In this document: piece after piece, positions 15,492 through 30,561 of the stretch
How positions within the stretch are numbered: the first letter of the stretch is position 1
How the letters are laid out: each line of letters opens with the position of its first letter
From: Actinosynnema sp. ALI-1.44
GTDB taxonomy: Bacteria > Actinomycetota > Actinomycetes > Mycobacteriales > Pseudonocardiaceae
Assembly (NCBI RefSeq): GCF_001984155.1
Contig: NZ_MTQO01000054.1
Coordinates: 992,001-1,056,000 of the forward strand
Reading direction: 5' to 3'
DNA length: 64,000 nt
Translations under genes and position numbers: made by a program
The notes under the pieces: model-generated
What the model was told of the DNA's origin: nothing
Databases searched by the model: none
The model's input: the letters and a program-made list of their open reading frames with translations, nothing else

Positions 15492-16148
15492 TCAGCTCAA
15501 CAGCGTGTAGTTCAGCTCCTCGCAGATCCGGCCGAGCGGCAGGTCGAGGCCGGGGTGGTCGAGCGGCAGCAGCATGTCGGGCGCGGGCGGGATCGCGGTG
15601 CCCGACGGCGGGTCGAACAGGCAGATCGCGGGTTCTCCACCGTCCATGGAGGATCGGTACCAGACGCCGTCGAGTTCGGGGTGCGCCGCCCTGATCGCCC
15701 GTGCCCACGCCTGGGTCAGCGCCTTCGCGCCGCTGGAGAGCTCCTGCGAGGCACCGGCCCTCGTCGGCCAGAGACCTGAGAGGTCGAGCAGGCGCAGCGT
15801 GCGCTGCGGGCGGAACACGACGAGGTGCGGCCGCCGGGTCGACCTGTCCACAATGGAGGTCGACTGGAACACCTCGGCGAGGCTGGTGCGCACCGACAGG
15901 CCGAAGTACAGCACGCCGTTGCCGGGGCTGTCGGCCGGACGGCCCTCGGGGCCGAGCGGGTGCGGGTCGAACCGGCCGTGCGGGAGCGGGCCGGTGTAGC
16001 GGAAGGAGTTCCACCGCTGGCGGTGCGCGCCACCCGCTGCGAAGATCCGGACAAGGCGCGTGCCACTGTGCACCGCGACAATGTCCTCGTCCACCCGCAG
16101 CAGCGACCTGAGCGCAGCCGGAGTCGGTGGCTGGGGGAGCCGAGCCAT
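15492..16148 (-). CDS. RES domain toxin (MbcT-like)
   Basis: A 218-residue RES-domain protein. Family signatures are RLVRIFAAGG near the N-terminus, RWNSFRYTGPLPHGRFD and LYFGLSVRTSLAEVFQS. RES toxins degrade or phosphorolyse NAD+ and are neutralised by a partner with a DUF2384-like domain; the M. tuberculosis MbcT/MbcA pair is the closest known example. The upstream gene (38 nt away, same strand) encodes a fitting antitoxin. The start is ATG 16148 without a clear Shine-Dalgarno sequence. The conserved Arg, Tyr and Glu residues expected for NAD binding appear present, but I could not check them by alignment. Confidence 0.85.
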   Translation of the reverse strand: MARLPQPPTPAALRSLLRVDEDIVAVHSGTRLVRIFAAGGAHRQRWNSFRYTGPLPHGRFDPHPLGPEGRPADSPGNGVLYFGLSVRTSLAEVFQSTSIVDRSTRRPHLVVFRPQRTLRLLDLSGLWPTRAGASQELSSGAKALTQAWARAIRAAHPELDGVWYRSSMDGGEPAICLFDPPSGTAIPPAPDMLLPLDHPGLDLPLGRICEELNYTLLS

Positions 16149-16186
16149 ACGTGTCTGTTCGTCAGCCGGTCAGGTTGTCCCTGCCG

Positions 16187-16771
16187 TCACGCCGGGGTTC
16201 CGAGGACGGCTGCCAGCGCGGCAACCCTATCCGGATCGCCGCCGGCGAGCAGCCATTGCCGCGGGGTGCCCGGTTCGCCGCTGATCAGCAGGTCCTCCTG
16301 CGGGGTGGTCATGAACGCCGCCACCACGAGGGGCGGCTGGTCGATGGGCAGCGCGGCCAGCACGGTCTCCAGGCCGGGCAGTACGCCCGAGCCGGTGAAC
16401 TGCCACGCGGGCAGCCGCCAGCCACCGCGGTCCTTCCAGCCGACGAGCCTGCCCGCCGCGAGGCGGTGCCTGATCCGGCTGGTGTCCACGCCGATGGTCG
16501 TGGCCGCGTCGGACACCGTCAGAGCGGAGTCCCGCAGCACGGCCTGTGCGGCGACGGCACGCGCACGCGAGTCGACCTCGTCCGGGCGGCGTGGGCGCAG
16601 GTCCAGGCCCACTTCGGTGAGGGTCTCGCGCTGGTCGGCTGAGAAGTACTCGGCGGGGTTCGGGTTGGGCGGGGACAACCGCCTCGCCGCGTCCTCGACC
16701 AGGCCGAGGAACTCGCCGGGGGTGACCCGCAGCCCTGCTTTGGCCAAAACCGTCTCCAGCGCAATACTCAT
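16187..16771 (-). CDS. Antitoxin-like HTH protein with DUF2384-like C-terminus
   Basis: A 194-residue protein. Residues about 85-125 contain a helix-turn-helix-like segment (LTVSDAATTIGVDTSRIRHR) followed by a short strand pair (GWKDRGGWRLPAWQF), like MerR/excisionase-type DNA binders. The last 35 residues (GEPGTPRQWLLAGGDPDRVA) match the pattern of the Xre/MbcA/ParS toxin-binding domain. Gene order, antitoxin first and RES toxin second on one strand, is the usual operon arrangement. TAGTCT (16778-16783, minus strand) lies 6 nt from the ATG, so a leaderless mRNA is likely. The promoter lies inside a large palindrome, as expected for autoregulation. Confidence 0.8.
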   Translation of the reverse strand: MSIALETVLAKAGLRVTPGEFLGLVEDAARRLSPPNPNPAEYFSADQRETLTEVGLDLRPRRPDEVDSRARAVAAQAVLRDSALTVSDAATTIGVDTSRIRHRLAAGRLVGWKDRGGWRLPAWQFTGSGVLPGLETVLAALPIDQPPLVVAAFMTTPQEDLLISGEPGTPRQWLLAGGDPDRVAALAAVLGTPA

Positions 16772-16777
16772 GCGCCT

Positions 16778-16847
16778 AGACTAGCGCGGATGTGCGGGTT
16801 CGTGCGCCTTTGTGAAGAAATTCACGAAGGTGGATACGAATCGCACA
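16778..16847. promoter_or_regulatory. Nested palindromic operator of the RES/antitoxin operon
   Basis: Two inverted repeats share a centre near 16819. The inner one is CCTTtGTGAA (16807-16816) and TTCACgAAGG (16821-16830) around GAAA. The outer one is TGTGCGGGTTCGT (16791-16803) and ACGAATCGCACA (16836-16847). On the minus strand the antitoxin -10 TAGTCT is at 16778-16783, so the outer left arm covers the spacer and -35. It lies between the antitoxin and the divergent ASCH gene and could control both. Confidence 0.65.
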
Positions 16848-16918
16848 TAGTCCAACACTGTGCGTGCAACTTCCACCACTATGCCGTCCGGGCAGGCTCC
16901 TGTCGAGAGGTATGAACG

Positions 16919-17497
16919 ATGCTGATCAGGCAGAACGTCCTCGAGCGGATCCGCGCGGGCGCGGTCACCCTCGCGTTCCGCCGCTGGAGCAGGCCGACTG
17001 TGAAGGCGGGCGGAACCCTCAAGACCGCTGTCGGCGTGCTCGCGATCGACTCCGTCGAGCGGGTCCCGCTACGCAGGATCACCGCCAAGGACGCCCGGTT
17101 GGCGGGATACAACACCCTCGCTGAACTGACATCGTCTCTCACGGGCCGTGACGGCGACGTGTACAGAGCGGCGTTGCGGTTCGTCGGCGACGACCCACGG
17201 GTGTCGTTGCGCGAGTCGTTGCCGTCGCCGGAGGAGGTCGCGCTGATCTCCTCGACGCTGCGCCGGATGGACGAACGGAGCAAACGCGGCCCGTGGACGT
17301 TCGCCGTGCTCTCGCTGATCGCCGCGCGGCCGGGAGTGCGTGCCCCCGATCTGGCGGCGTCGCTCGGCCGCGAGACGCTCCAGTTCAAAGCGGACGTTCG
17401 CAAGCTCAAGGAACTCGGCCTCACCGAGAGCCTCGAAGTGGGCTACCGGCTTTCGCCGCGCGGTCGCGCTGTGGTTGACCGGCAACCGACTTCCTGA
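16919..17497 (+). CDS. ASCH-domain protein with C-terminal winged helix
   Basis: A 192-residue protein. The N-terminal 100 residues look like an ASCH (PUA-like) RNA-binding fold: AGAVTLAFRRWSRPTVKAGG, GVLAIDSVERVPLRRITAKD, then YRAALRFVGDDPR. The C-terminal part (WTFAVLSLIAARPGVRAPDL and FKADVRKLKELGLTESLEVG) resembles a winged helix. Nucleic-acid binding, perhaps tRNA or mRNA, is likely; the target is unknown. ATG 16919 follows GAGAGG at suitable spacing. It is divergent from the antitoxin gene across the nested palindrome. Confidence 0.75.
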   Translation: MLIRQNVLERIRAGAVTLAFRRWSRPTVKAGGTLKTAVGVLAIDSVERVPLRRITAKDARLAGYNTLAELTSSLTGRDGDVYRAALRFVGDDPRVSLRESLPSPEEVALISSTLRRMDERSKRGPWTFAVLSLIAARPGVRAPDLAASLGRETLQFKADVRKLKELGLTESLEVGYRLSPRGRAVVDRQPTS

Positions 17498-17512: not shown

Positions 17513-17560
17513 TTGACACGTCGGAGTGGTCACCCTAGCGTCTCGGGTAATCGTTTACTC
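17513..17560 (+). promoter_or_regulatory. Sugar ABC operon promoter with LacI-type operator
   Basis: TTGACA (17513-17518) and TAGCGT (17536-17541) are separated by 17 bp. GGGTAATCGTTTACTC (17545-17560), a CG-centred LacI-type near-palindrome, follows 3 nt later and covers the expected start site. The same hexamers, spacing and operator recur at 25183-25230 before the isomerase gene. Confidence 0.85.
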
Positions 17561-17574
17561 GGCCTCAGGGCGGG

Positions 17575-19110
17575 GTGTGGATGGACAACGGTGTCGCATC
17601 ACTGGTGGGGCTGCTGCGGATCAGCAAGTCCTACGGCGGGGTCAGGGCTTGCCACGACGTGGACCTCACGGTCCGGGCAGGCGAGGTGCACGCGCTGCTC
17701 GGCGAGAACGGCGCGGGCAAGTCGACGCTGATGCGCGTGCTGTCCGGCGATCTGACCGACTACACCGGAACGATCACCGTCGACGGCGAACCCGTCCGCT
17801 TCCACGGCCCGGCCGACGCGCAACGCGCCGGAATCGCCATGATCCACCAGGAACTCGACCTCGTGCCGGGGCTTTCGGTCGCGGAGAACATCTTCCTCGG
17901 CAGGGAACCGCGCACCCCGTTCGGCACGCTCGACCGGCGCGCGATGCTGCGTGAAACCGGGAACCTGTTGCGCCGCACCGGAATCGACCTGGACCCCCGG
18001 CGGCACGTCGGCGAGCTGCGCACCGGCGAACAGCAGTTGGTGAGCGTGGCGAAGGCGCTCTCGCTCGACGCGAAGGTGCTGATCATGGACGAGCCGACGT
18101 CCGCGCTGTCGTCGGCCGAAGTGGACCGGATGTTCGCCGTGATCGGCGAGTTACGCCGATCCGGTGCGGGAATCGTCTACATCTCGCACCGGATGGACGA
18201 GATCGGCCGGATCGCCGACCGGGCCACCGTCCTGCGCAACGGATCGGTCGTGGCCGAGTTCGACGCGCGCGACATGACCGCGGACCAGGCCGCCGAGGCG
18301 ATGATCGGCCGCCCGATGCGGGCGATGTTCACCACTCACGAGAACGTCACCTCCGGCGAGATCCTGCTGGAGGTCAAGGATCTCGTCGTCCCCCGAGCAC
18401 GCTCGGGGCGCCGCGACCCCGCGGGGATCAGTCTCACCGTCCGCCGAGGCGAGATCGTCGGGCTGGCGGGCCTGCTGGGGGCTGGCCGCACCGAACTGCT
18501 GGAGACCCTGTTCGGCGCGGGCGGGCGCTGGCAGGGATCGGTGGTCTTCAAGGGCCGCTCGACCGGCCGCCGCAAGCCGCGCTCGGCGATCCGCGCCGGC
18601 GTGGTCTACATGCCGGAGGACCGCCGGATCTCCGGCCTGGCGCTCGGCCACTCGGTGCTCGCCAACACCGTACTGTCCGTTGTGGACAGGATCGCGCGGC
18701 TGGGCGTGGTGTCGCGGCGGCGGGAAACGGCGGAGACCACGCGGATCGTGCGTGACCTGAGCATCAAGCTGGCGTCGGTGCGTGATCCCGTCTCCGCGTT
18801 GTCCGGCGGCAACCAGCAGAAGGTCGTACTCGGCCGGATGCTGCTCACCGAACCGGAACTGCTGCTGCTGGACGAACCGACGCGGGGGGTCGACGTCGGC
18901 GCCAAGGCGGAGATCTACCAGCTGCTCGGCCAGGCCGCGCAGCGCGGGATGGGTGTGTTGCTCGCGTCGTCGGAACTGGCCGAGCTGGTGGGCGTGTGCG
19001 ACCGGGTGGTCGTGTTGCGCGGCGGGCGCGATGTCGCGGAGCTGCGGACCTCGCAGGCCGGTGAGGCCGAGGTGCTCGCGGCAGCCATGGGGGAGGTCGT
19101 CGCCTTATGA
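17575..19110 (+). CDS. Sugar ABC importer ATP-binding protein (RbsA/XylG type)
   Basis: A 511-residue double-ATPase subunit of a CUT2-family sugar importer. The first domain has Walker A GENGAGKST and Walker B VLIMDEPTSALSSAE. The second has the usual degenerate P-loop GLLGAGRTE, an intact signature LSGGNQQKV and LLLDEPTRGVDVGAKAEIYQ. The start is GTG 17575; ATG 17581 is also possible. It is the first gene of an ATPase-permease-binding protein operon, and its stop overlaps the permease ATG (ATGA). The operator just upstream places it under the LacI regulator encoded at 24122-25120. The sugar is probably a pentose or furanose; see the GH172, isomerase and kinase genes. Confidence 0.95.
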   Translation: MWMDNGVASLVGLLRISKSYGGVRACHDVDLTVRAGEVHALLGENGAGKSTLMRVLSGDLTDYTGTITVDGEPVRFHGPADAQRAGIAMIHQELDLVPGLSVAENIFLGREPRTPFGTLDRRAMLRETGNLLRRTGIDLDPRRHVGELRTGEQQLVSVAKALSLDAKVLIMDEPTSALSSAEVDRMFAVIGELRRSGAGIVYISHRMDEIGRIADRATVLRNGSVVAEFDARDMTADQAAEAMIGRPMRAMFTTHENVTSGEILLEVKDLVVPRARSGRRDPAGISLTVRRGEIVGLAGLLGAGRTELLETLFGAGGRWQGSVVFKGRSTGRRKPRSAIRAGVVYMPEDRRISGLALGHSVLANTVLSVVDRIARLGVVSRRRETAETTRIVRDLSIKLASVRDPVSALSGGNQQKVVLGRMLLTEPELLLLDEPTRGVDVGAKAEIYQLLGQAAQRGMGVLLASSELAELVGVCDRVVVLRGGRDVAELRTSQAGEAEVLAAAMGEVVAL

Positions 19111-20117
19111 CCGGTACGGATTTCGTGCGGAGCCGTCGGGAGAGCGCGCTGGCCACGGTGTTCCGCTTCCAAAGCCTGTTCGGCCTGGTGGCGGTGTTCA
19201 TCGCCGCGATCGTCTTCTCGCCGAGCCGCAACGGTGAACTGCTGTTCCTCACCAGCGACAACCTGTTCAACGTGGTGCGGGCGGTGTCGGAGATCGGGAT
19301 CATCGCGGTCGGCATGACGTTCGTGATCCTGATCGGCGGCATCGACCTCTCGGTCGGCGCGATGCTCGGGCTCGCCGCGGCCGGGTCGGCGGTTCTTCTG
19401 GTGGAGAACGACTTCGGCCTCGTCCCGGCCGTGCTGGTCGTGCTGGCCGTCGGGCTCGGCTTCGGCCTGCTGCAGGGCGTCGCGTCGGCCGTGTTCGGCA
19501 TCCAGGCGTTCATCGTCACCCTGGCCGGGCTGCAGTGCGCGCGAGGACTGGCGCGGATCTGGTCGGGCGGGCAGGGCATCGCGATCCCCTACGGCGACGG
19601 GCCCGGCGAGGCGCCGGTGGCGTTCTCCCTGCTGGGAGAGCGGACCTTCAACGGCCTGGTGCCGATCCCGGCGCTGATCTTCGTCGTGGTGGCGGCACTG
19701 GCGATCCTCTTCCTGCGTGGCACGGCGTTCTCCCGGCACGTGTACGCCATCGGCGGCAACGAGAAGGCCGCTCGGCTGTCGGGTGTGCCGGTCAAGCGGG
19801 TCAAGATCGCGGTGTTCGGCATCTGCGGGCTGCTCGCCGCACTGGCCGGGATCATCCACGCGGGCCAGCTCAACCAGGGCAGCCCCAACGACGGTCTCGG
19901 CTACGAACTCGACGCGATCGCCGCGGTGGTCGTCGGTGGAACGAGTCTCGCCGGTGGGCGCGGCTCGGTCGTCGGCACCGTGGCCGGTGCGCTGCTGCTC
20001 GGCGTGCTCAACAACATCCTGGCGCTCAACGGCGTCGACACGAACGTCCAGCTCCTGATCAAAGGGCTTGTGATCGTGGTGGCGGCAGGCCTGCAACAGC
20101 TGCGGCCGTCCACCTGA
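19107..20117 (+). CDS. Sugar ABC importer permease (RbsC type)
   Basis: A 336-residue permease with eight to ten hydrophobic segments. CUT2 permease hallmarks are visible: IIAVGMTFVILIGGIDLSVG near the start and AIGGNEKAARLSGVPVKRVK, the cytoplasmic loop that contacts the ATPase. GLGYELDAIAAVVVGGTSLA and GRGSVVGTVAGALLLGVLNN follow near the C-terminus. ATG 19107 overlaps the ATPase stop by 4 nt, so the two are translationally coupled. It forms the membrane channel together with the ATPase upstream and the lipoprotein downstream. Confidence 0.95.
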   Translation: MTGTDFVRSRRESALATVFRFQSLFGLVAVFIAAIVFSPSRNGELLFLTSDNLFNVVRAVSEIGIIAVGMTFVILIGGIDLSVGAMLGLAAAGSAVLLVENDFGLVPAVLVVLAVGLGFGLLQGVASAVFGIQAFIVTLAGLQCARGLARIWSGGQGIAIPYGDGPGEAPVAFSLLGERTFNGLVPIPALIFVVVAALAILFLRGTAFSRHVYAIGGNEKAARLSGVPVKRVKIAVFGICGLLAALAGIIHAGQLNQGSPNDGLGYELDAIAAVVVGGTSLAGGRGSVVGTVAGALLLGVLNNILALNGVDTNVQLLIKGLVIVVAAGLQQLRPST

Positions 20118-20134
20118 GGCAGAGAGGACGAGAC

Positions 20135-21127
20135 ATGCGAGGACTGGCGTTCCTGGGAGTCGCCGTGGCGCTCGGCTCGTTGGTGGCCTGCGGGACGACG
20201 AGCGAGAACCGTTCCGGCGGACCCGCGTCGAACACGCAGTGCAAGGGCGCCGGCGGCAAGTACGTCATCGGGATGAGCCAGGCCAACGTGGCCGAGCCGT
20301 ACCGGCAGCGGATGGACGACGACATCCGCACCGCGGCCAAGGCGGTACCGCAGTTCGACGTCCGCTTCACCGACGCCCAGCAGGACAACTCCCGCCAGGT
20401 GTCCGACGTCGAGAACTTCCTGACCCAGCAGATCGACCTGCTGATCATCAGCCCGAACGAGGCCAAACCGCTGACCGGCGTGGTCAAGAAGGCCTACGAC
20501 AAGGGCATCCCGGTGATCGTGCTCGACCGCAAGGTGGAAGGCGACGCCTACACCACCTGGATCGGCGCGGACAACGTGGAGATCGGCCGCCAGGCGGGCA
20601 AGTACGTCGCCGAGCAGCTGCTGCCCGACGGCGGCAAGATCGCCGAGATCCGCGGCCTGGCCGGGTCGACGCCCGCCAAGGAACGCGGCGACGGGTTCCG
20701 CGAGTCGATCCGCGGCCGCAAGATCGAGATCGCGGTCAGCCAGGACGGCGACTGGTTGCGGGAGAAGGGCCAGGAGAAGGCCGACGCGATCCTCAAGTCC
20801 AACCCGGACGTCTCGGTGATCTACGCGCACAACGATCCGATGGCCGAAGGCGCCTACCTGGCCGCACGAGCAGCGGGCAGGCAGGACGCGTTGAAGTTCA
20901 TCGGGATCGACGGGCTGCCGATCCCGTCCGGTGGCCTGAAGGCCGTCGAAGCCGGGCGCCTGTCGGCGACGCTGATCTACCCGACCGCGGGCAAGGAAGC
21001 GGTCGAGGCGGCCAAGAAGATCCTGGTGGACTGCCAGCAGGTGCCCAAGACACAGACGCTGAAAACACAGTTGATCACCAAGGAAAACGCGGCACAGGTC
21101 TACGCGAAGGAGAACTCCGGCAACTGA
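20135..21127 (+). CDS. Sugar-binding lipoprotein of the ABC importer
   Basis: A 330-residue periplasmic-binding protein of the RbsB/Peripla_BP_4 type. A lipoprotein signal peptide ends in the lipobox LVAC with Cys at residue 19, so the protein is anchored outside the membrane. The mature part starts YVIGMSQANVAEPYRQRMDD and contains QIDLLIISPNEAKPLTG, VIVLDRKVEG and VIYAHNDPMAEGAYLAARAA, typical of ribose/xylose/galactose binders. The Shine-Dalgarno AGAGGACGAG lies before ATG 20135. The gene is 17 nt downstream of the permease and is followed by a strong hairpin, which probably ends this transcript. Confidence 0.95.
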   Translation: MRGLAFLGVAVALGSLVACGTTSENRSGGPASNTQCKGAGGKYVIGMSQANVAEPYRQRMDDDIRTAAKAVPQFDVRFTDAQQDNSRQVSDVENFLTQQIDLLIISPNEAKPLTGVVKKAYDKGIPVIVLDRKVEGDAYTTWIGADNVEIGRQAGKYVAEQLLPDGGKIAEIRGLAGSTPAKERGDGFRESIRGRKIEIAVSQDGDWLREKGQEKADAILKSNPDVSVIYAHNDPMAEGAYLAARAAGRQDALKFIGIDGLPIPSGGLKAVEAGRLSATLIYPTAGKEAVEAAKKILVDCQQVPKTQTLKTQLITKENAAQVYAKENSGN

Positions 21128-21136
21128 ACACAGTTT

Positions 21137-21191
21137 TGCAACCAATGTGGCCTTCGTAGCGCCTGGCGCAACGAAAGCCACATTGGTTGCA
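21137..21191. terminator. 55-nt near-perfect palindrome, probable bidirectional terminator
   Basis: TGCAACCAATGTGGC (21137-21151) pairs perfectly with GCCACATTGGTTGCA (21177-21191). The interior continues TTCGT/ACGAA and GCGCC/GGCGC past single mismatches, so almost the whole element folds into one hairpin. There is no T tract, as is common in actinomycetes. It lies 9 nt after the binding-protein stop. Confidence 0.75.
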
Positions 21192-21247
21192 CATCCCGGG
21201 GCGGCGTGAGGGCAGCCCGGGCTGACAACACCATATGAGGAGGCGGG

Positions 21248-23722
21248 ATGCGCTTCGGATCCCTGCTCGCATCCACAATCATCTCCGCCCTCGTCCTCAG
21301 CTCGGTCAGCGGTGTCGCCCACGCGGCACCGCGGGTTACGAGTGCGACGGACAAGGGCCCGATCGGCTGGCAGGTCTATCGCCAGATGGACCAGCTGGCG
21401 GCGATGAGACCTGGCGCCATGTCGCGGCAGTTCTCCAGTTTCGACCGCGCGGGCGGCAACGACGACGGCTTCGTCGGCACCTATTCGTGCCTGCGCACCA
21501 CCGCGACCGGGTGCGTGATCGCCGAGCGGACCGGCGCGGGGCAGATCGACTCGATGTGGTTCACCCGCGACTTCGGTTCGATGGTCAACAACGGCCGGAT
21601 CAAGATCGAGCTGGACGGCCGGGTCGTCCTCGACGACCTCCTGCAGGAAGTCGTCGACGGGAAACTCGGCGCGCCATGGGTGTGGCCTCTGGTCGGCAAC
21701 GGCGACGACACCTCCGGCGGCGCGGTGGTCAAGGTGCCGATGCCGTACCGCGAGTCGATGCGGGTGACCGTGCAGGCGAACCCGCTCTTCTACCACGTGT
21801 CGTACCGCGATTTCGCGGACGCCGACGGCGTGCAGACGTTCGACCCCGCCGACAAGGCGCTCGACGTGGTCGCGAAGCTGCGCGGGTACGGCATCCGCGA
21901 TCCCAAGGGCGTCGCCGCGACCAAGGCACCGGTGGCCAAGGGCGCGGTCGCGCCCGGCAAGTCCAAGAACGTGGCCGCGCTGGCCGGATCGGGCTGGCTG
22001 ACCCAGTTGCGCGTGAAGATCCCGCAGATCGTGGCCAGTCCCCGGGTCGGCGACGACGGGCGGGCGTTCGCGGTGGGCGGGTCGACGACGTTCAAGGTCG
22101 CGATCGACCCCGCGAACTCCGGAGTCCGGCTGACCAGGCGCTACGACCCGCAGGTGGGCAACCAGCGTGCGCGGCTGGTCGTCGACGGGACCCAGGTGGG
22201 GTTCTGGGAAAGCGGGCCGCGGATCCCGACGGGCGAGTGGCGTGACCAGACCATCCAGATCCCGCCTGCGCTGACCGCGGGCAAGTCGGCGCTGACCGTG
22301 CTGAACGAGTACGTGTCGTCCGACCTGGACGTGAACGAGTTCCGCTACGCCGTGCACAGCAACGTCCTCGGCGACTGGCGTCGTACGGACGTGGTGGACG
22401 TCGGCCCGAACCACCCCGGCGACGAGCAAGCGCACGGGTACACGATCAAAGGTCTGAACTGGCAGGGTTACCGGGTGTTCCGCTATCCCGTCGCGCCCGC
22501 GGACGTGACGAGGTCGGACGCGCTGCTGAGCGGTGTGCGGATCGTGATCTCGTTCGACGGCAAGACAGGCGTGGACGCCCCGCTCGGCGAGTTCTTCGGC
22601 TCGGGGTTGGGCGAGTACGACACGATGACGTTGATGTCCTCGATCGACACGGCGCCGGACGGCTGGTACACGTCCTGGTGGCCGATGCCGTACGCCCGCA
22701 ACGCGACAGTGACACTGGTCAACCAAAGCGGCGTCGAACTCGGCGACGTCACTGTCGAAACGGACCACGTCCCCGACGCATCGGTGGCGGCAGCGTTGCA
22801 GTCCGGCAGGATCGGGTACTTCCGCGCGACCAGTCAGGCCGGGAACACGGTGCCGGGACAGGACTTCACATTCCTCCAGGCAAGCGGCCGCGGCGTGTAC
22901 TACGGCGTGACGCACTCGATGCGGGGCGCGATCCCCAACGGCAACATGCGCCTGTACCTCGAAGGCGACGAACGCGTGTACGTGGACGGCGCGGCGACAC
23001 CGACGATCTACGGAACCGGCACGGAGGACTTCTACGAATCGGGCTGGTACTTCCGCGACGGCATCACGTACACCATGCCGCTGGCGGGAAACCCGGCATG
23101 GGAACTGAACGGTGACGGCTGCCAACACGACTGCACAGGGGCGTACCGCCTGATGATCGGTGAGGCGGTGTCGTTCTCGTCGAACCTGCGCTTCGACATC
23201 CAGCACGGCCCGGTGAACGACGCACCGGCGAACTACAGCTCGACGTCCTACTGGTACGGACAATCCCAGCAGGCGCTCAGCGAAAGCGACGTCCTCGACG
23301 TGGCGGACGACGCGAGCCGCGCGGCCCACGGGTACCAGTCGACGGGAGAGACCCGCCGGACGTTGCAGTCGACCTTCGAAGGCAAGGACGACAAGGTGAC
23401 CGTGTCCGACGGCGTGGCCGCCACCACGGGCGCGATCTCGTTCGCGCTGAAGCTGGCGCCGGGGAGTACGGGAGCCAGGCTGTTGCGGATGAACGACCAG
23501 AGCGAGGCGTTCCAACAGGCAAGCGTTTCCGTGGACGGTGTGGTGGTGGGAACCTGGTTCCAGCCGCTGGGCAACACCTCTTCGCGGTGGCTGGAGGATT
23601 CGTTCGAGCTGCCCGGGAGTGCGGTGGCGGGCAGGAGTTCGGTGACGGTCCGGCTTGTGCCGCAGACCGGTTCACCGGCTTGGTCGGCCGCGCGCTACCG
23701 GATGCTGACCAAGACTGACTGA
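21248..23722 (+). CDS. Secreted GH172 (DUF2961) glycoside hydrolase
   Basis: An 824-residue protein with an N-terminal signal peptide ending near AHA (about residue 27). The catalytic region shows DUF2961/GH172 features: QIDSMWFTRDFG, GRIKIELDGRVVLDDLLQEV, the core motif YGTGTEDFYESGWYF and YRLMIGEAVSFSSNLRFDIQ. Two further beta-rich regions follow, about residues 240-350 and the last 120. GH172 includes enzymes acting on D-fructofuranosides and D-arabinofuranosides, including exo-D-arabinofuranosidases that degrade mycobacterial arabinan. The RBS GAGGAGG precedes ATG 21248. It lies between the importer operon and the LacI/isomerase/kinase genes, so it probably supplies the sugar imported by this locus. 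The exact linkage is not visible. Confidence 0.85.
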   Translation: MRFGSLLASTIISALVLSSVSGVAHAAPRVTSATDKGPIGWQVYRQMDQLAAMRPGAMSRQFSSFDRAGGNDDGFVGTYSCLRTTATGCVIAERTGAGQIDSMWFTRDFGSMVNNGRIKIELDGRVVLDDLLQEVVDGKLGAPWVWPLVGNGDDTSGGAVVKVPMPYRESMRVTVQANPLFYHVSYRDFADADGVQTFDPADKALDVVAKLRGYGIRDPKGVAATKAPVAKGAVAPGKSKNVAALAGSGWLTQLRVKIPQIVASPRVGDDGRAFAVGGSTTFKVAIDPANSGVRLTRRYDPQVGNQRARLVVDGTQVGFWESGPRIPTGEWRDQTIQIPPALTAGKSALTVLNEYVSSDLDVNEFRYAVHSNVLGDWRRTDVVDVGPNHPGDEQAHGYTIKGLNWQGYRVFRYPVAPADVTRSDALLSGVRIVISFDGKTGVDAPLGEFFGSGLGEYDTMTLMSSIDTAPDGWYTSWWPMPYARNATVTLVNQSGVELGDVTVETDHVPDASVAAALQSGRIGYFRATSQAGNTVPGQDFTFLQASGRGVYYGVTHSMRGAIPNGNMRLYLEGDERVYVDGAATPTIYGTGTEDFYESGWYFRDGITYTMPLAGNPAWELNGDGCQHDCTGAYRLMIGEAVSFSSNLRFDIQHGPVNDAPANYSSTSYWYGQSQQALSESDVLDVADDASRAAHGYQSTGETRRTLQSTFEGKDDKVTVSDGVAATTGAISFALKLAPGSTGARLLRMNDQSEAFQQASVSVDGVVVGTWFQPLGNTSSRWLEDSFELPGSAVAGRSSVTVRLVPQTGSPAWSAARYRMLTKTD

Positions 23723-23792
23723 GACTGGTTGAGACTGGTTGAGTCGCGACGTGGCGGTGCTCTGCCGACTGGTGTCGAAGGCGCACCATGAG

Positions 23793-23832
23793 GATCGGCT
23801 CTTGCCTGCCCCTGCCCGGGCAAGAGCCGATC
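23793..23832. terminator. Hairpin after the GH172 gene
   Basis: GATCGGCTCTTGCC (23793-23806) and GGCAAGAGCCGATC (23819-23832) are perfect 14-bp inverted arms around a 12-nt loop, 70 nt past the GH172 stop. This is probably a factor-independent terminator without a T tract. Confidence 0.7.
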
Positions 23833-23840
23833 ACCGGCTC

Positions 23841-24088
23841 GGAACTGTCAGACCCCACTGGTAACGTGAAATTCAGGGGTCCCCCTGGGGGAATTCATGA
23901 TGCGGGTGGTGCGTGCCCTGTCCTGGACTGGTCGGGTGATGCGGGCGGTGGGACGCTGGGGCTTGGTGGTCTGTGCCGGATGGAAGCTGGTGGCGCGTGG
24001 TGTCGTGACGCCCGGGGTCCGTCGGCCGGCCGGAACTGTCAGACCCCTCCGGTAGTGTGGAAATTGGGGGTCCCCCGGGCGGGATTCG
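23841..24088 (+). repeat. Two-copy promoter-like direct repeat
   Basis: A block starting GGAACTGTCAGACCCC and containing GGTA, GTG, AAATT and GGGGTCCCCC occurs at 23841-23896 and again at 24032-24088. The first 16 bases are identical and the rest about 70 percent alike. Each copy includes a GGGGTCCCCC palindrome. No believable gene lies between or within them in this 399-nt stretch between the GH172 and lacI genes. Similar blocks precede DUF222/HNH (13E12-type) repeat genes in actinomycetes, as far as I recall, so these may be leftovers of such an element. Confidence 0.5.
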
Positions 24089-24121
24089 ACATTCGGTGGC
24101 GCATGTCGTGGGGCGTGCTGG

Positions 24122-25120
24122 TCACCGAGTCGAGCTGCCGCGGGGGATGAGGGTGGCGCTCAGTGTGGTGGTGGTGTAGGGCAGCGTGCTGTCCGCGATG
24201 CGGGCGAGCAGGAGTTGCGCCGCGACTTTGCCGATGTCGTACGCGGGTTGGGAAACGACTGAGAGTGGTGGGTTGACCAACGGTGCCCATGGGGCGTCGT
24301 CGAACGCGACCACGCCGACGTCCTCGCCCATTCGGAGATCCATTGTGGAGAGAGCTTCGAGGACGCCGATGGCCATCGTGCTGTTGGCGACCAGCAGGGC
24401 GTCCGGGCGTTCCGGTGAGTTCAGCAGGTCGATCGTCGCCTCGTAGGCGCCGTCCGCGCGGTACTCCGAGCGGCGGACAAGCTTGGCTGTCGTGCGGCGT
24501 TTGGCTGCTCGCAGTGCGTCTTTGTAGCCCGCCAGGCGGTCGTTCGCCGTCGGGATTCCCGCTGGGCCCGTCACGCAGCCGATTCGTTCGTACCCTTGGG
24601 TGATCAGGTGGGTGGTTGCCTGTTCGGCCGCGCTTCTCGTGTCGACGAGGACCATGTCCGCCGCTGCTGACGGCAGTGCCCTGTCCACGGCCACCAGCGG
24701 GGTCCTCCTGGCGGTCAGCAGGTCCACAGTGGTCGTCGTCCCGGTCGGTGAGAGCACGACGCCCGCCACCCTTTCCTGGATCGCGACGTCTATGTACCGT
24801 CTTTCCTTCTCCGGGCTTTCGTCCGAGTTGCAGAGCACCACCGAGTAGCCCTCTGCCTGCGCCACGTCCTCCACGCCGCGGGCGATCGACGTGAAGAACG
24901 GGTTCTCGACATCCGAGATGATCAACGCCAGCACCGCCGTCTCCTGGCGGCGCAGGTTGCGGGCCGGTCCGTTGGGTTGGTAGCCCAGTTCGGCCGCTGC
25001 CGCGAGCACACGGGAGGCCAGCGCCGGATCTACTGTGGACTTCCCGTTCAGCGCGCGTGACGCGGTCGCCGTCGAGACCCCGGCCTTGGTCGCCACGTCG
25101 TTGATGGTCGCCACACCCAC
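24122..25120 (-). CDS. LacI-family transcriptional regulator
   Basis: A 332-residue LacI regulator. The N-terminal DNA-binding helix-turn-helix and hinge read ATINDVATKAGVSTATASRA, with the hinge near GYQPNGPARNLRR. A periplasmic-binding-protein-like effector domain follows (LIISDVENPFFTSIARGVED, VGVVAFDDAPWAPLVNPPLS). I chose GTG 25120 because the HTH starts three residues later, as is normal for LacI proteins; an upstream GTG at 25189 is less likely. It is divergent from the isomerase gene, whose promoter carries a perfect LacI-type palindrome, and a second copy precedes the ABC operon. It should repress both until the sugar or a derivative binds. Confidence 0.92.
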   Translation of the reverse strand: MGVATINDVATKAGVSTATASRALNGKSTVDPALASRVLAAAAELGYQPNGPARNLRRQETAVLALIISDVENPFFTSIARGVEDVAQAEGYSVVLCNSDESPEKERRYIDVAIQERVAGVVLSPTGTTTTVDLLTARRTPLVAVDRALPSAAADMVLVDTRSAAEQATTHLITQGYERIGCVTGPAGIPTANDRLAGYKDALRAAKRRTTAKLVRRSEYRADGAYEATIDLLNSPERPDALLVANSTMAIGVLEALSTMDLRMGEDVGVVAFDDAPWAPLVNPPLSVVSQPAYDIGKVAAQLLLARIADSTLPYTTTTLSATLIPRGSSTR

Positions 25121-25182
25121 CGGCCTCACTCTGTGAACTGATGTGAACGTCTCTGCAGCGCACGGGAGGCACTGCGGTGATG

Positions 25183-25230
25183 TTGACACTACTCGGCCTG
25201 GAGAATAGCGTCATGAGTAATCGATTACTC
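25183..25230 (+). promoter_or_regulatory. Isomerase/kinase promoter with LacI operator
   Basis: TTGACA (25183-25188), 17-bp spacer, TAGCGT (25206-25211), then the perfect palindrome GAGTAATCGATTACTC (25215-25230) over the expected start site. The architecture matches the site at 17513-17560 almost exactly. Confidence 0.88.
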
Positions 25231-25270
25231 AACTCGAGGGCAGTGTCGCTGCGAACGCGTTGGAGGACTC

Positions 25271-26683
25271 GTGGCCCGAATCGGCGTGATCAGCATTTCC
25301 GACGGCCGAGACTACGTACACGGCGGCATCGCCGATTTCATCCACCAGACCGAGGACAAGCTGGCCGCACGGCTGGCGGACGCGGGCCACGACGTGGTCC
25401 GCGGGTCGAGCCCGGTCAGCACCAACACGCTCGCGACCTCGGTCGCGCGTGAGATCGCCGCGGCGGACGTCGACCTCACCGTGCTGCACTACGCGGTCTG
25501 GGCCTTCCCGCACTTCACGATGCTCGCGGCGGGTGCGATCGACGGTCCGTTGCTGCTGCTGTCCAACATCGACCCCGTTCAGCCGGGCATGGTCGGCATG
25601 CTCGCCGCGGGCGGTGCGCTCGACCAGATCGGACGCACCCACACCCGGCTGTGGGGCGATCCGGACTCGCCGGAGCTGATCGCGTCGATCGGCACGCACG
25701 CCACCGCCGCGGCGGCGGTCGCGGGTCTGCGCGGCGCCACGTTCGGCCGGATCGGCGGACGGCCGATGGGGATGAACACCGCCGTCGCCAACACCGACCA
25801 GTGGCAACGGCTGTTCGGGATCGACGTCGAGGAGATCGACCAGTGGGAGATCGTCCGGCGTGCCGAATCGGCCGACGCGGGCGAGAAGGCCAAGGCGCGG
25901 AAATGGCTGGAGCGGCACGCCACCGTCCACTACGACGGCAAGAAGCTGACGCCGGAGCTGCTCGAGCGGCAGATCGGCTCGTACATCGCGATGCGTGAGC
26001 TGATCGACGAGTGGAACCTGGACTTCACCGGGATCAAGGGGCAGCCGGAGCTGACCCAGTACTTCGCGACGATGGACATCGCCGAGGCGTTCCTCAACGA
26101 CCCGTATGACTGGAACGGTCCGAAACAACCTCACGTCTGCGCGACCGAGGCCGACATGGACGGCGCGTTGACCATGCAACTGTTCAAACAGATCACGGGG
26201 ACGCCGGTGCTCTTCGCCGACGTGCGGCACTACCACGGCGATCGGGACATCTGGGACCTGTGCAACTCGGGACAGCACGCGACCTGGTACGCGGCGCGCA
26301 GTTCCGACCCGGCCGAGAACCTCGCGCGCGTGCACCTGTACCCGGAGGTGTTCTTCTTCCCCGCCGGTGGCGCGTCCGTGCACCACCTCGCGGCGCCCGG
26401 CGAGATGACGCTGGGGCGCTTGACACGGAAAGACGGCGCGTATCGAATGCAGTTGATGCTGGGCAGCTTCGAGACGTACGACGACGAGACCAACCAGGCG
26501 TTGATGGACCAGTCGACGCCGGAATGGCCGCACGCCTTCGCCCGCTTGGACGCGCCCGCCGAGGTGTTCCTGTCCCGGTTCGGCGCCAACCACATCCACG
26601 CTGTGCCCGGTGACCACCGCGCCACCGTGCGCGCGGCGTGCTCGTTGCTCGGTGTGACGCTCGACGAGTTCACCAGGGGCTGA
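25271..26683 (+). CDS. L-fucose/D-arabinose isomerase-like sugar isomerase
   Basis: A 470-residue protein of the L-fucose/L-arabinose isomerase fold. Recognisable segments are LHYAVWAFPHFTMLAAGAID, GPLLLLSNIDPVQPGMVGML, GATFGRIGGRPMGMNTAVAN and VFFFPAGGASVHHLAAPGEM. It would interconvert an aldose and a ketose using a divalent metal. FucI-type enzymes also isomerise D-arabinose to D-ribulose, which fits the neighbouring GH172 enzyme and kinase better than fucose. GTG 25271 has the Shine-Dalgarno GGAGG 4 nt upstream. Its stop overlaps the start of the FGGY kinase by 1 nt. Control by the LacI operator 40 nt upstream is expected. Confidence 0.87.
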   Translation: MARIGVISISDGRDYVHGGIADFIHQTEDKLAARLADAGHDVVRGSSPVSTNTLATSVAREIAAADVDLTVLHYAVWAFPHFTMLAAGAIDGPLLLLSNIDPVQPGMVGMLAAGGALDQIGRTHTRLWGDPDSPELIASIGTHATAAAAVAGLRGATFGRIGGRPMGMNTAVANTDQWQRLFGIDVEEIDQWEIVRRAESADAGEKAKARKWLERHATVHYDGKKLTPELLERQIGSYIAMRELIDEWNLDFTGIKGQPELTQYFATMDIAEAFLNDPYDWNGPKQPHVCATEADMDGALTMQLFKQITGTPVLFADVRHYHGDRDIWDLCNSGQHATWYAARSSDPAENLARVHLYPEVFFFPAGGASVHHLAAPGEMTLGRLTRKDGAYRMQLMLGSFETYDDETNQALMDQSTPEWPHAFARLDAPAEVFLSRFGANHIHAVPGDHRATVRAACSLLGVTLDEFTRG

Positions 26684-28164
26684 TGACGGTTGGTGACACT
26701 GTGCTGATCGGGATCGACATCGGGACGTCGAGTTCCAAGGGGGTGCTCGTCCGTCCGGATGGGACGGTCGTCGCCCGCGCGAACCGTCCGCACGCGGTGT
26801 CGTCACCGCACCCCGGCTGGGCCGAACACGATGCCGAAACCGTGTGGTGGGACGACTTCGTCGCGATCGCCAGGGAACTCGCCGACGCGGCGCCGTCGCC
26901 GATCACCGGTCTCGGGGTCAGCGGCATCGGTCCGTGCCTGCTGCCCGCGTCGGCTGACGGCAAACCGCTTCGGCCCGCGATCCTGTACGGTGTGGACACG
27001 AGGGCGACGGCGGAGATCGAGGAACTGACCGCGAGGCTGGGCGCCGAGGCGATACTCCAGCGCGGCGGGACGCCGTTGTCCAGTCAAGCCGTCGGCCCGA
27101 AGGTGATGTGGCTGGCACGCAACGAACCCGATGTCTTCGCACGGATGTCGTTGTTGCTGATGGCCAGCTCCTACCTGGTACTCAGGTTGACCGGGCGGTA
27201 CGTGCTGGACCACCACTCCGCGAGCCAATGCGATCCGATGTACGACATGCACACGGCGGACTGGGCACGTGACTGGTGTGCGGAGCTGGCGCCGGACCTG
27301 GAGTTGCCCGAACTGTTCTGGCCGGGCGACATCGTCGGCACGATCACGCAGGCCGCTGCCGAGGTGACCGGTCTGCCCGCGGGGTTGCCGGTGACAGCGG
27401 GGACCGTCGACGCGTGGGCCGAGGCGACCAGCGTCGGCGTGCGATCGCCCGGTGACGTGATGGTCATGTACGGCACCACGATGTTCGTGATCAAGGTCGT
27501 GCCTGACCCCCGGCCCCACCCGGCGCTGTGGACGACCCAGGGCGCCTTCGCGGGCACGTACTCGCTCGCGGCCGGAATGGCGACATCGGGCGCGATCACC
27601 GACTGGCTGCGGCAGCTGTTCGCCGGGTCCTTCAGCGACTTGGTCACCAGGGCGGCCGCCGTGCCCGCGGGCAGCCGGGGACTGTTGATGCTGCCGTACT
27701 TCGCGGGGGAACGGACGCCGATCTTCGACCCGGCCGCCCGGGGTGTCATCGCCGGGCTCACGCTGAGCCACGGACAAGCCGAGATCTACCGGGCGGCGCT
27801 CGAAGGCACGGCGTACGGCCTGCGGCACAACCTCGAGGTGATGGGCGGCTCACAGCAACGGGTGGTCGCGGTCGGTGGTGGCACCCAGGGCGACCTGTGG
27901 ACCCAGATCGTCTCGGACGTGACGGGCGTGCCGCAGCAACTGCCTGCCGAGACCGTCGGCGCCTGCTTTGGCTCGGCGATGTTCGCCGCCTCCGCGCAGG
28001 GTCAATCGGTGGACGACTGGAATCCGCTGGCCAGGACAGTGACGCCCGACCCGGAGCGCACCGCGAGGTACGACCTGTTCTACGAGCAGTACCGCGCGCT
28101 GTACCCGGCGACGCGGGACCTGGCGCACTTCCTCGCCGCGGACCAGCTCGGCGACCGCTTCTAA
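26683..28164 (+). CDS. FGGY-family pentulose/sugar kinase
   Basis: A 493-residue carbohydrate kinase. The N-terminal ATPase-fold motif is LIGIDIGTSSSKGVLV and the C-terminal domain has YFAGERTPIFDPAARGV, VAVGGGTQGDLWTQIVSDVT and the usual final helices. ATG 26683 shares its A with the TGA stop of the isomerase (TGATGA), so the two are translationally coupled. As partner of the isomerase it should phosphorylate the ketose product, D-ribulose or L-fuculose/xylulose, feeding the pentose phosphate pathway or an aldolase. No aldolase gene is present in the locus. This favours D-ribulose 5-phosphate, which needs none. Confidence 0.93.
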   Translation: MTVGDTVLIGIDIGTSSSKGVLVRPDGTVVARANRPHAVSSPHPGWAEHDAETVWWDDFVAIARELADAAPSPITGLGVSGIGPCLLPASADGKPLRPAILYGVDTRATAEIEELTARLGAEAILQRGGTPLSSQAVGPKVMWLARNEPDVFARMSLLLMASSYLVLRLTGRYVLDHHSASQCDPMYDMHTADWARDWCAELAPDLELPELFWPGDIVGTITQAAAEVTGLPAGLPVTAGTVDAWAEATSVGVRSPGDVMVMYGTTMFVIKVVPDPRPHPALWTTQGAFAGTYSLAAGMATSGAITDWLRQLFAGSFSDLVTRAAAVPAGSRGLLMLPYFAGERTPIFDPAARGVIAGLTLSHGQAEIYRAALEGTAYGLRHNLEVMGGSQQRVVAVGGGTQGDLWTQIVSDVTGVPQQLPAETVGACFGSAMFAASAQGQSVDDWNPLARTVTPDPERTARYDLFYEQYRALYPATRDLAHFLAADQLGDRF

Positions 28165-28165
28165 G

Positions 28166-28195
28166 TGGTCACTGTGTCCGCTTAGGTGTACAGTG
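28166..28195 (+). promoter_or_regulatory. Probable leaderless promoter and operator of tetR
   Basis: TGGTCA (28166-28171) and TACAGT (28189-28194) are 17 bp apart, and the -10 ends 7 nt before GTG 28202. The inverted repeat CACTGT (28170-28175) / ACAGTG (28190-28195) spans the promoter and is a plausible autoregulatory operator. Confidence 0.5.
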
Positions 28196-28201
28196 GGGTG
28201 C

Positions 28202-28753
28202 GTGAGAGCGGACGCGGCGCGCAACAAGGAGAAGGTGCTGTCGGCCGCCGCCCGGCTGTTCGCGACCAAGGGCGCGCGCAACGTCACGATGGCCGACATC
28301 GCCCAGGCGGCGGATGTCGGCCGGGCGACGCTGTACCGGCGCTACCCGGACGTGGCCTCGATCGCGACAGCGCTGCTCGACGCGCACGAACACGACCTGC
28401 AGGAGCAACTGCTGCGCGGCGCCCCGCCACTGGGACCGGGAGCGGACCCGGCGGCGCGGTTGACGGCGTTCTACGCGGCGATGGTCGACCTGCTCGAGCG
28501 GCATCACGAACTGGTACTCGGTACCGAAGTCGGCCAGTCCCGGCTGCGAACCGGCGCCTACGGGTTCTGGCGGGCGCATGTCCGTTCGTTGCTGGTTGTG
28601 GCCGAAGTGCCGGAAGCGGATGCGCTCGCCGACTCGCTGCTGGCTCCCTTGGCACCGGATGTCTATACGTACCAGCGGAAAGAACGCGGCTTGTCGACGA
28701 AGGAGATCGTCGTCGGCCTTGACCGGCTCGCCTGCGGAGTGCTGGGCCGATGA
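28202..28753 (+). CDS. TetR/AcrR-family transcriptional regulator
   Basis: A 183-residue TetR repressor. The N-terminal HTH is ARNKEKVLSAAARLFATKGA followed by VTMADIAQAADVGRATLYRR. The C-terminal ligand-binding region is helical with no further signature. I prefer GTG 28202 because a -10 box lies 7 nt upstream; an in-frame GTG at 28193 would overlap that box. It lies 37 nt after the kinase gene, but the promoter and palindrome between them suggest independent control. The downstream guanidinium exporter is a possible target. Confidence 0.88.
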   Translation: MRADAARNKEKVLSAAARLFATKGARNVTMADIAQAADVGRATLYRRYPDVASIATALLDAHEHDLQEQLLRGAPPLGPGADPAARLTAFYAAMVDLLERHHELVLGTEVGQSRLRTGAYGFWRAHVRSLLVVAEVPEADALADSLLAPLAPDVYTYQRKERGLSTKEIVVGLDRLACGVLGR

Positions 28754-29241: not shown

Positions 29242-30397
29242 TCAGGGGGAACGAGTCGTGTTGTCGTACAGGTAGTGCCAGATCGGCCTCGGTCCCTCCG
29301 GAAGTGGACCGGTGACGAGAGCAGCCGCCGACGCGCCGTGTGTGCCCCGGTGCGCGGCGTCCTCGTCGAGGACGAACTCCGGCCGCAGTTGCTCGGTGTC
29401 GTAGTACCGGTGGAACACCGAAGTTTGGGAACTGGTCATCGGCGGCACGATCCAGCTCCAGTCGGCCGGGCAGGTGCGTCCCGCGCGTTGCTCCTTGTCC
29501 AAGTGCTTGATGAACCTGTCGGATTCCGTGTGGTGGTCGGTGATGGTGACATCCGCCGCGGCGTACGAATGCAGGACGGCACGGTTCAGTTCGACCATCG
29601 CGCGGTCCCGCCACAGGGTCGTCTCGCGGCTGGTGTCCAGGCCCAGCCCGCGCGCGATCTCGGGCAGCAGGTCGTAGCGGTCGGTGTCGGCGAAGTTTCG
29701 CGCGCGATCTCCGTTCCCATATACCAGCCGTTGAACGGCGCGGCGGGATACGAGACGCCACCGATCACGAGCCGCATGTTGCTGATGGCCGAGTTCGGCA
29801 AGCCACGGCGGCTCGGGGTGGGTGATGGGCACCTCCCTGATCGCGTCGGCGGGTAACTCGTACAGCCGCACGCCGGACTCCGGCGTCTCGACCACCAGCG
29901 GTAGCACGTCGAACGCACCGCGCGGTTCCGCGGGCCGCCAGCCGTGTTTCATCACCGAGCCGGTAAAACCCAGGTAGCGGGGATCACCGAGCACACCACC
30001 GTCCTCCTTCGGGTACGCCGCATAGCGAATCAGTTGCTCGTTCCAGATCCGGGGCGCGGGCCGGTCGGCCGCCTGCGGGGCGAACACCGAGATCAACGGC
30101 CGGATCTTGCCGCCGTTCCACGCCAGCCTCAGGTGCTGGACGCACTGTTCGGCGATGTCGTCCGGATCGCCCGCAGTCACGCACTCGCAGGCTCCGCCAG
30201 TACAACCGTCCGATGCATCGGGCGCTGTTGCGCCACGCGAGCTGTGCGCCGTATGCGAGTTCGGCGGTTGTGTGCTGGTAGGTGCCGGTCAGGTCGATCG
30301 CTGCCATCACCCACGCCAGCCGCCGGTCCATGTCACCGGCCGATGGGTTCTCCGTGTGGAACTGCTGGAGGAACTCCGCGGCCGCGTCGGGATCCAC
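29242..30397 (-). pseudogene. nos: Bacterial nitric oxide synthase oxygenase, frameshifted
   Basis: The haem-ligand motif AWRNSARCIGRLYW is intact near residue 60, and the C-terminal block SWIVPPMTSSQTSVFHRYYD is typical of bNOS. Between them the reading frame breaks three times. After RSLRVRD, near 30195, the sequence resumes one frame later as TAGDPDDIAEQC. After PPWLAELG, near 29800, about 23 nt encoding the expected LRWHALPA are missing. [20 protein letters not shown] then runs in another frame, and near 29715 one base is lost before [11 protein letters not shown]. bNOS makes NO from arginine; this copy cannot encode a full enzyme as read. The 23-nt loss argues for real decay over simple sequencing error. 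Confidence 0.88.
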
Positions 30398-30489
30398 CGG
30401 TCCGTCCGTGGCCGGAGGAGGTGCGGACGACTGCTCAGACGACGGGGGTCGGTCATCTGCCTGCTGCGGCCGGGTCTGTCGCCGCTGAC

Positions 30490-30525
30490 GATAACCGTCG
30501 AAATCTAACCGTTATCAATATTGTC
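30490..30525. promoter_or_regulatory. AT-rich dyad between nos and beta-propeller gene
   Basis: GATAAC (30490-30495) and GTTATC (30511-30516) are perfect arms around 15 nt, flanked by CTGAC and GTCAG (30521-30525). AACCGT also occurs twice, 14 nt apart. The low G+C of this stretch, within a divergent intergenic region, suggests a promoter/operator for one or both genes. Confidence 0.45.
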
Positions 30526-30561
30526 AGCAACGCATTCCGGTGGTCTCACCGTCTTGTGTGT

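Follow-up and report, generated by a model that had tools for sequence, protein, structure and literature searches.

A candidate LacI-controlled locus for D-arabinofuranoside use in Actinosynnema sp. ALI-1.44

Which sugar is used by a gene group in which a secreted-looking enzyme of glycoside hydrolase family 172 (GH172) stands beside a CUT2 ABC importer, a FucI-like isomerase, an FGGY kinase and a LacI-family regulator? Such a group lies at positions 17513-28164 of a 64,000-nucleotide stretch of the Actinosynnema sp. ALI-1.44 genome (contig NZ_MTQO01000054.1), here called the window. An earlier note on this DNA had read it as a route from D-arabinose to D-ribulose 5-phosphate. This reading is supported by Nocardia orthologues that are encoded beside a GH172 resembling ExoMA1 (one representative), by a published D-arabinan cluster with GH172, isomerase and kinase genes, and by the lack of a class-II aldolase in the window. 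We consider it probable that the genes form a single LacI-controlled system for the use of D-arabinofuranosides.

In the proposed route, the secreted GH172 would trim terminal alpha-D-arabinofuranosyl units off an extracellular glycan, and the free sugar, probably as the furanose, would be taken up by the binding protein and the CUT2 importer. Judging from family and gene context, the FucI-type isomerase would convert D-arabinose to D-ribulose, and the FGGY kinase would convert D-ribulose to D-ribulose 5-phosphate, which would enter the pentose phosphate pathway with no need of an aldolase. LacI would repress both transcription units by binding the matching operator that lies shortly after the promoter of each.

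Gene content and control of the locus

The features of the locus are, in order of position:

17513..17541, plus strand: promoter-like TTGACA-17-TAGCGT of the importer/GH172 unit (consensus match only)
17544..17561, unstranded: LacI-type operator CGGGTAATCGTTTACTCG ahead of the importer
17575..19110, plus strand: CUT2 sugar ABC ATPase with two ABC domains (Pfam ABC_tran; start possibly 17593)
19107..20117, plus strand: CUT2 permease (BPD_transp_2)
20135..21127, plus strand: sugar-binding lipoprotein (Peripla_BP_4; lipobox LVAC by eye; nearest solved chain 2x7x)
21137..21191, plus strand: strong hairpin, outer stem of 15 bp, separating the binding-protein and GH172 genes (-40.7 kcal/mol over 21128-21200)
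21248..23722, plus strand: GH172 (DUF2961), secreted-looking, 824 aa (Pfam; signal peptide by eye)
23793..23832, unstranded: hairpin between the convergent GH172 and LacI genes (-45.1 kcal/mol over 23760-23850)
24122..25189, minus strand: LacI-family regulator (start probably 25114, by eye)
25183..25211, plus strand: promoter-like TTGACA-17-TAGCGT of the isomerase/kinase unit (consensus match only)
25214..25231, unstranded: operator TGAGTAATCGATTACTCA, a perfect palindrome of 18 bp located between LacI and isomerase
25271..26683, plus strand: FucI-fold aldose-ketose isomerase, proposed D-arabinose isomerase
26683..28164, plus strand: FGGY kinase, proposed D-ribulokinase (1-base overlap with the isomerase gene)

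Every named gene has Pfam matches above the curated cut-offs (ABC_tran, BPD_transp_2, Peripla_BP_4, DUF2961, LacI, Fucose_iso_N1/N2/C and FGGY_N/FGGY_C). All the components named in the earlier note are thus present, secretion of the GH172 being judged by eye. The CUT2 set is complete, with a fused double ATPase, a BPD_transp_2 permease and a Peripla_BP_4 binding protein. By its position the hairpin at 23793-23832 is terminator-like, and the one at 21137-21191 possibly has a role in mRNA processing or attenuation.

A TTGACA box begins exactly at 17513, the given start of the locus. In both units the operator starts two bases past the TTGACA-17-TAGCGT site. A search of the 11.7-Mb genome for the exact core GTAATCGNTTAC found two sites, one before each unit (the palindromic site matches on both strands), and its backward control gave no match. 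From base composition about 0.8 matches are expected by chance, and therefore the evidential weight lies in the position of the two sites. These operator-like sites suggest that LacI would bind and repress both units, making them one system.

The isomerase (470 residues) matches all three Fucose_iso domains. It scores 93.5 bits against the NCBIfam L-fucose isomerase equivalog, whose cut-off is 775, and on this profile score belongs to a subfamily other than that equivalog. Its structural model (predicted local distance difference test, pLDDT, 91) is closest to E. coli FucI (1fui, template modelling (TM) score by query length 0.88) and to the D-arabinose isomerase of Bacillus pallidus (3a9r, 0.89). 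Both have the same fold at 21-22% identity in the structural alignment, with about 590 residues. E342 and D366 of chain 3a9r, which we take to be metal ligands, are matched in the alignment by E293 and D317. The kinase scores 313.3 bits against XylB (TIGR01312), under the cut-off of 380.25, in a scan that carried one extra residue before the start.

The GH172, the only one in the genome, gives a PF11175-type DUF2961/GH172 match of 211.7 bits (cut-off 27). Its E572, E593, D594 and W600 correspond to E270, E291, D292 and W298 of alphaFFase1, an alpha-D-fructofuranosidase of Bifidobacterium dentium, so that the acid/base and nucleophile Glu pair with the adjacent Asp is kept. An N-terminal GGNDD motif is present, and the alignment shows additional beta-sandwich regions (~230-385 and ~690-824, limits set by eye). 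The model has a mean pLDDT of 81 and is poor around the active site: mature-chain residues 536-545 and 571-605, adjoining the catalytic Glu 546 and 567, fall below 50. Its best structural matches are GH172 enzymes, with TM scores of 0.48-0.61 when normalised to target length and 0.25-0.30 to query length, and a single weak match was to a carbohydrate-binding domain (8x8h).

Related loci in other genomes

A scan of named genomes retrieved 325 relatives of the isomerase, of which the best 80 were kept as loci (numbered with L) and all examined, with genes counted by tblastn. The order importer-GH172-LacI-isomerase-kinase recurs in many of them. Since gene order recurs and both units share the operator core, the grouping is not due to chance. 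A GH172 lies within 10 kb of the isomerase orthologue in 70 of the 80 loci, 31 of the window type and 39 found with a Nocardia-type query. Any GH172 at all was matched in 24 of 60 sampled genomes of the window's family, which argues that this adjacency is not chance either.

The 80 loci comprise 40 from Nocardia and 40 from elsewhere. Among the non-Nocardia loci, LacI is found in 40/40, the kinase in 36/40, the importer with its binding protein in 32/40 and the window-type GH172 in 31/40. One of them, L059, was matched by the Nocardia-type GH172 query at only 32% identity. The Nocardia loci contain the isomerase (40/40), the kinase (39/40) and a GH172 of another type (38/40), together with a GH43/GH32-like protein (40/40), a second kinase (39/40) and a zinc dehydrogenase (22/40). 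The two that lack a GH172, L026 and L057, reach contig ends. The window and Nocardia types, 27% identical over 277 columns, were found together in none of the 80 loci at a 100-bit threshold.

Nocardia isomerases encoded beside the Nocardia-type GH172 are 82-85% identical to that of the window. A representative of this GH172 (L031) scores 389 bits against ExoMA1 (8ic8) and 115-123 bits against alphaFFase1, 4kq7 and 8ah3. ExoMA1 is a proven exo-alpha-D-arabinofuranosidase (PMC10509167). The isomerase-kinase pair thus occurs with an ExoMA1-like GH172 in loci without the window's importer. The second Nocardia kinase (representative L021) passes the XylB cut-off with 414 bits. As only this kinase reaches it, the two kinases probably differ in substrate, judging from their profile scores.

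The GH43/GH32-like protein, of about 300 aa (Pfam for L018 and L057), is encoded at 8969-9862 of L018 beside the isomerase-kinase pair and has equivalents in all 40 Nocardia loci. It also occurs in L036 and L039, there between isomerase and kinase, and could be a further enzyme acting on D-arabinan.

Several loci depart from the common layout. L077 and L079 have GH172, LacI, isomerase and kinase, and no CUT2 importer was found within the stretch. In L070 and L080, GH172 and LacI are separated by other genes, and the stretches of these two loci begin too near GH172 for the importer to be judged. For the organism of L070, Saccharopolyspora sp. NFXS83, the available text of PMC10145562 lists GH172 among families with unmatched proteins and states no function. 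L002, on a contig labelled Rhodococcus rhodnii NRRL B-16535, agrees with the window in gene order, and the proteins of the two are 86-96% identical. It closely resembles the Kibdelosporangium loci L003 and L004, and its genome is possibly mislabelled.

Across 296 genomes of the phylum, the isomerase was matched (E up to 1e-60) in 11, the window's own included. Eight of the others belong to a family of another class, f19 (66-68% identity; loci fetched as L102-L109), and two to family f13 (32-34%). A third GH172 type was found by blastp near the isomerase in three of the eight f19 loci (L102, L103 and L106; the GH172 of L102 and that of L106 score 297 bits in Pfam). The two GH172 queries found none in the remaining five, of which L109 is on a short contig, nor in the f13 loci L110 and L111. 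The f19-type GH172 (L106) scores 273-287 bits against 4kq7, alphaFFase1 and DgGH172c (8ah3), and 111 bits against ExoMA1.

Which sugar, and from where

Several observations weigh against D-arabinofuranoside use as the function of the locus. The window GH172 is divergent, with its best solved relatives at 85 bits or less and ExoMA1 at 43 bits, and it carries Leu at the position of alphaFFase1 Trp267. The f19-type GH172 gives D-arabinose no edge over D-fructose, because its scores to 4kq7, alphaFFase1 and DgGH172c are nearly equal. The isomerase profile does not separate FucI (116.5 bits) from D-arabinose isomerase (115.6 bits), and L-fucose is also a substrate of FucI-type enzymes. The binding protein's nearest solved relative, 2x7x, points to fructofuranose if we are right in taking it for the fructose sensor BT1754. 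In 10 of the 80 loci no GH172 was in reach, although seven of these do not reach the end of a contig, and the kinase is absent from five, of which one (L080) is cut at a contig end. The sequence GTAA-N4-TTAC was found no more than 450 bp ahead of the expected genes in 14 loci. All 14 belong to the 40, out of 80, that carry this LacI gene, so that the exact operator form is absent from 26 of these 40. None of the 40 Nocardia loci, where this LacI gene was likewise not found, has it ahead of these genes. Finally, the cell is equipped unlike known D-arabinan degraders, its GH183 gene being unlinked and GH116 undetected.

This last point bears on the source of the sugar. The genome has one copy of DUF4185/GH183, on another contig (C46), and no match to PF04685 (DUF608), presumably the GH116 domain. 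Neither Emb (PF04602) nor AftA (PF12250) was matched in the genome, which is reported as 100% complete. The system might instead recycle the cell's own wall D-arabinan rather than feed on neighbours, and this best-surviving alternative we judge unlikely. An Emb-type arabinosyltransferase was matched in 41 of the 60 sampled family genomes, including one of the window's genus, and the isomerase-kinase pair is common in Nocardia, which have D-arabinan (PMC10509167). Against recycling stands the lack of Emb and AftA matches in this genome, where a divergent route of arabinan synthesis is possible. With a single GH172, an unlinked GH183 and no match to GH116, Emb or AftA, feeding on foreign D-arabinan is favoured, and D-arabinan of other actinomycetes, or fragments of it released by others, is more likely the source than the cell's own wall. 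The polymer may be arabinogalactan or lipoarabinomannan, as the earlier note suggested.

Fructose is a less probable answer to the question of the sugar, and we give it only a small chance. The substrates of the GH172 and importer would then be fructose and alpha-D-fructofuranosides (difructose anhydrides, for instance), and isomerase and kinase would act on a by-product or another ketose. The resemblance of the binding protein to 2x7x favours this (217 bits, the next solved structure reaching 142), as does the f19-type GH172, which is as close to alphaFFase1 as to DgGH172c. An aldose isomerase would be superfluous for fructose, however, and in Nocardia the isomerase-kinase pair accompanies an ExoMA1-like D-arabinofuranosidase where this importer is missing. 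A fructose-sensing domain of BT1754 is mentioned in PMC3404733, and PMC8605356 describes alphaFFase1 as an alpha-D-fructofuranosidase whose Trp267 forms subsites -1 and +1. The loss of this Trp in the window GH172 also speaks against fructofuranosides. The residue is retained in the aligned Nocardia-type and f19-type GH172; it belongs to alphaFFase1 and is not known as a defining trait of GH172 enzymes.

That isomerase and kinase act on L-fucose or another aldose, with the aldolase encoded elsewhere, is the least probable alternative and very doubtful: the FucI fold, the class-II aldolases elsewhere in the genome and certain f19 neighbours would suit it, yet the kinase reaches only 109 bits against an L-fuculokinase model with a cut-off of 471 and, to our knowledge, no GH172 releases L-fucose. 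Those neighbours are dehydrogenase-like genes and an enolase-family protein near the isomerase in L102, L104 and L107 (Pfam MR_MLE for L102), the latter presumably resembling L-fuconate dehydratase; they fit either L-fucose or D-arabinose. The lack of an aldolase concerns class II (PF00596), the only aldolase family searched for: of six genome-wide matches none falls in the window, and the closest one on this contig is about 140 kb away from the locus.

Boundaries, known systems and meaning

Outside the locus, the window was covered by Pfam spot checks. A TetR gene at 28193-28753 was dropped as a member, as it had no tblastn match (E up to 1e-5) in the 80 loci. Of the 80 loci, 7 to 14 share the genes just upstream (~15492-17497), which the Saccharopolyspora and Nocardia clusters lack; being limited to close relatives, these genes were left out. 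On the minus strand at 15492-16771 a RES-domain protein (69 bits) is encoded beside a small protein with a weak, below-cut-off winged helix-turn-helix match. The two adjoin the locus in 12 to 14 relatives and may be a toxin-antitoxin pair. Further on are a protein with a bacterial nitric oxide synthase oxygenase domain (29242-30180, minus strand; PF02898, 302 bits) and a large beta-propeller-domain protein (29959-32664; PF09826, 463 bits).

Degradation of D-arabinan with GH172 enzymes is described in PMC10509167 and PMC10115798. By gene content, the closest likeness is the Microbacterium arabinogalactanolyticum D-arabinan cluster (PMC10509167), in which GH172 is reported together with an ABC importer and with an isomerase and a kinase, both putative, D-ribulose 5-phosphate being the proposed end product. 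In that account, GH183 and GH116 belong to the cluster, unlike here; the GH172 has no signal sequence, whereas that of the window looks secreted; and the binding protein is of the SBP_bac_8 family and thought to take oligosaccharides, in contrast to the CUT2 importer of the window. In PUL42, a polysaccharide utilisation locus (PUL) of Dysgonomonas gadei, three GH172 enzymes are reported active on arabinogalactan, and a predicted fucose isomerase was abundant during growth on D-arabinan (PMC10115798). It is a Bacteroidota PUL with GH183, and the available text mentions no arrangement of CUT2 importer and LacI. The alphaFFase1 of B. dentium, which shares the catalytic Glu pair, Asp and distal Trp with the window GH172, is described as acting on alpha-D-fructofuranosides and alpha-D-arabinofuranosides and as having two jelly rolls without added modules (PMC8605356).

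A search by title or abstract found no published work on this locus type. The logic of GH172, importer, isomerase and kinase is already published for Microbacterium and in part for Dysgonomonas. Within the literature searched, four points are new: a monosaccharide importer of CUT2 type, a pair of operators dedicated to LacI, the clade of secreted-looking multidomain GH172 without linked GH183 or GH116, and the linkage of a single isomerase-kinase pair with at least two types of GH172.

A broader proposal, which we hold tentatively and at somewhat less than even confidence, is that D-arabinose scavenging is a widespread, hitherto undescribed trait of Pseudonocardiaceae. It would rely on a clade of secreted GH172 enzymes carrying added beta-sandwich modules, and on a CUT2 importer, related to a fructofuranose sensor, that is dedicated to free D-arabinofuranose. 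If so, the sugar would enter as the monosaccharide, whereas import of oligosaccharides has been proposed for the D-arabinan-degrading Microbacterium, and cells without GH183/GH116 clusters could live on fragments released by others. Because a single isomerase family recurs beside three types of GH172, its assignment to D-arabinose is far easier to test than it would be from one locus, and the proposed D-arabinose importer, isomerase and kinase can each be assayed individually. The new GH172 clade may become a tool for work on arabinogalactan. For soil actinomycetes, the locus offers a testable route for the use of D-arabinose, a hallmark sugar of mycobacterial-type walls.

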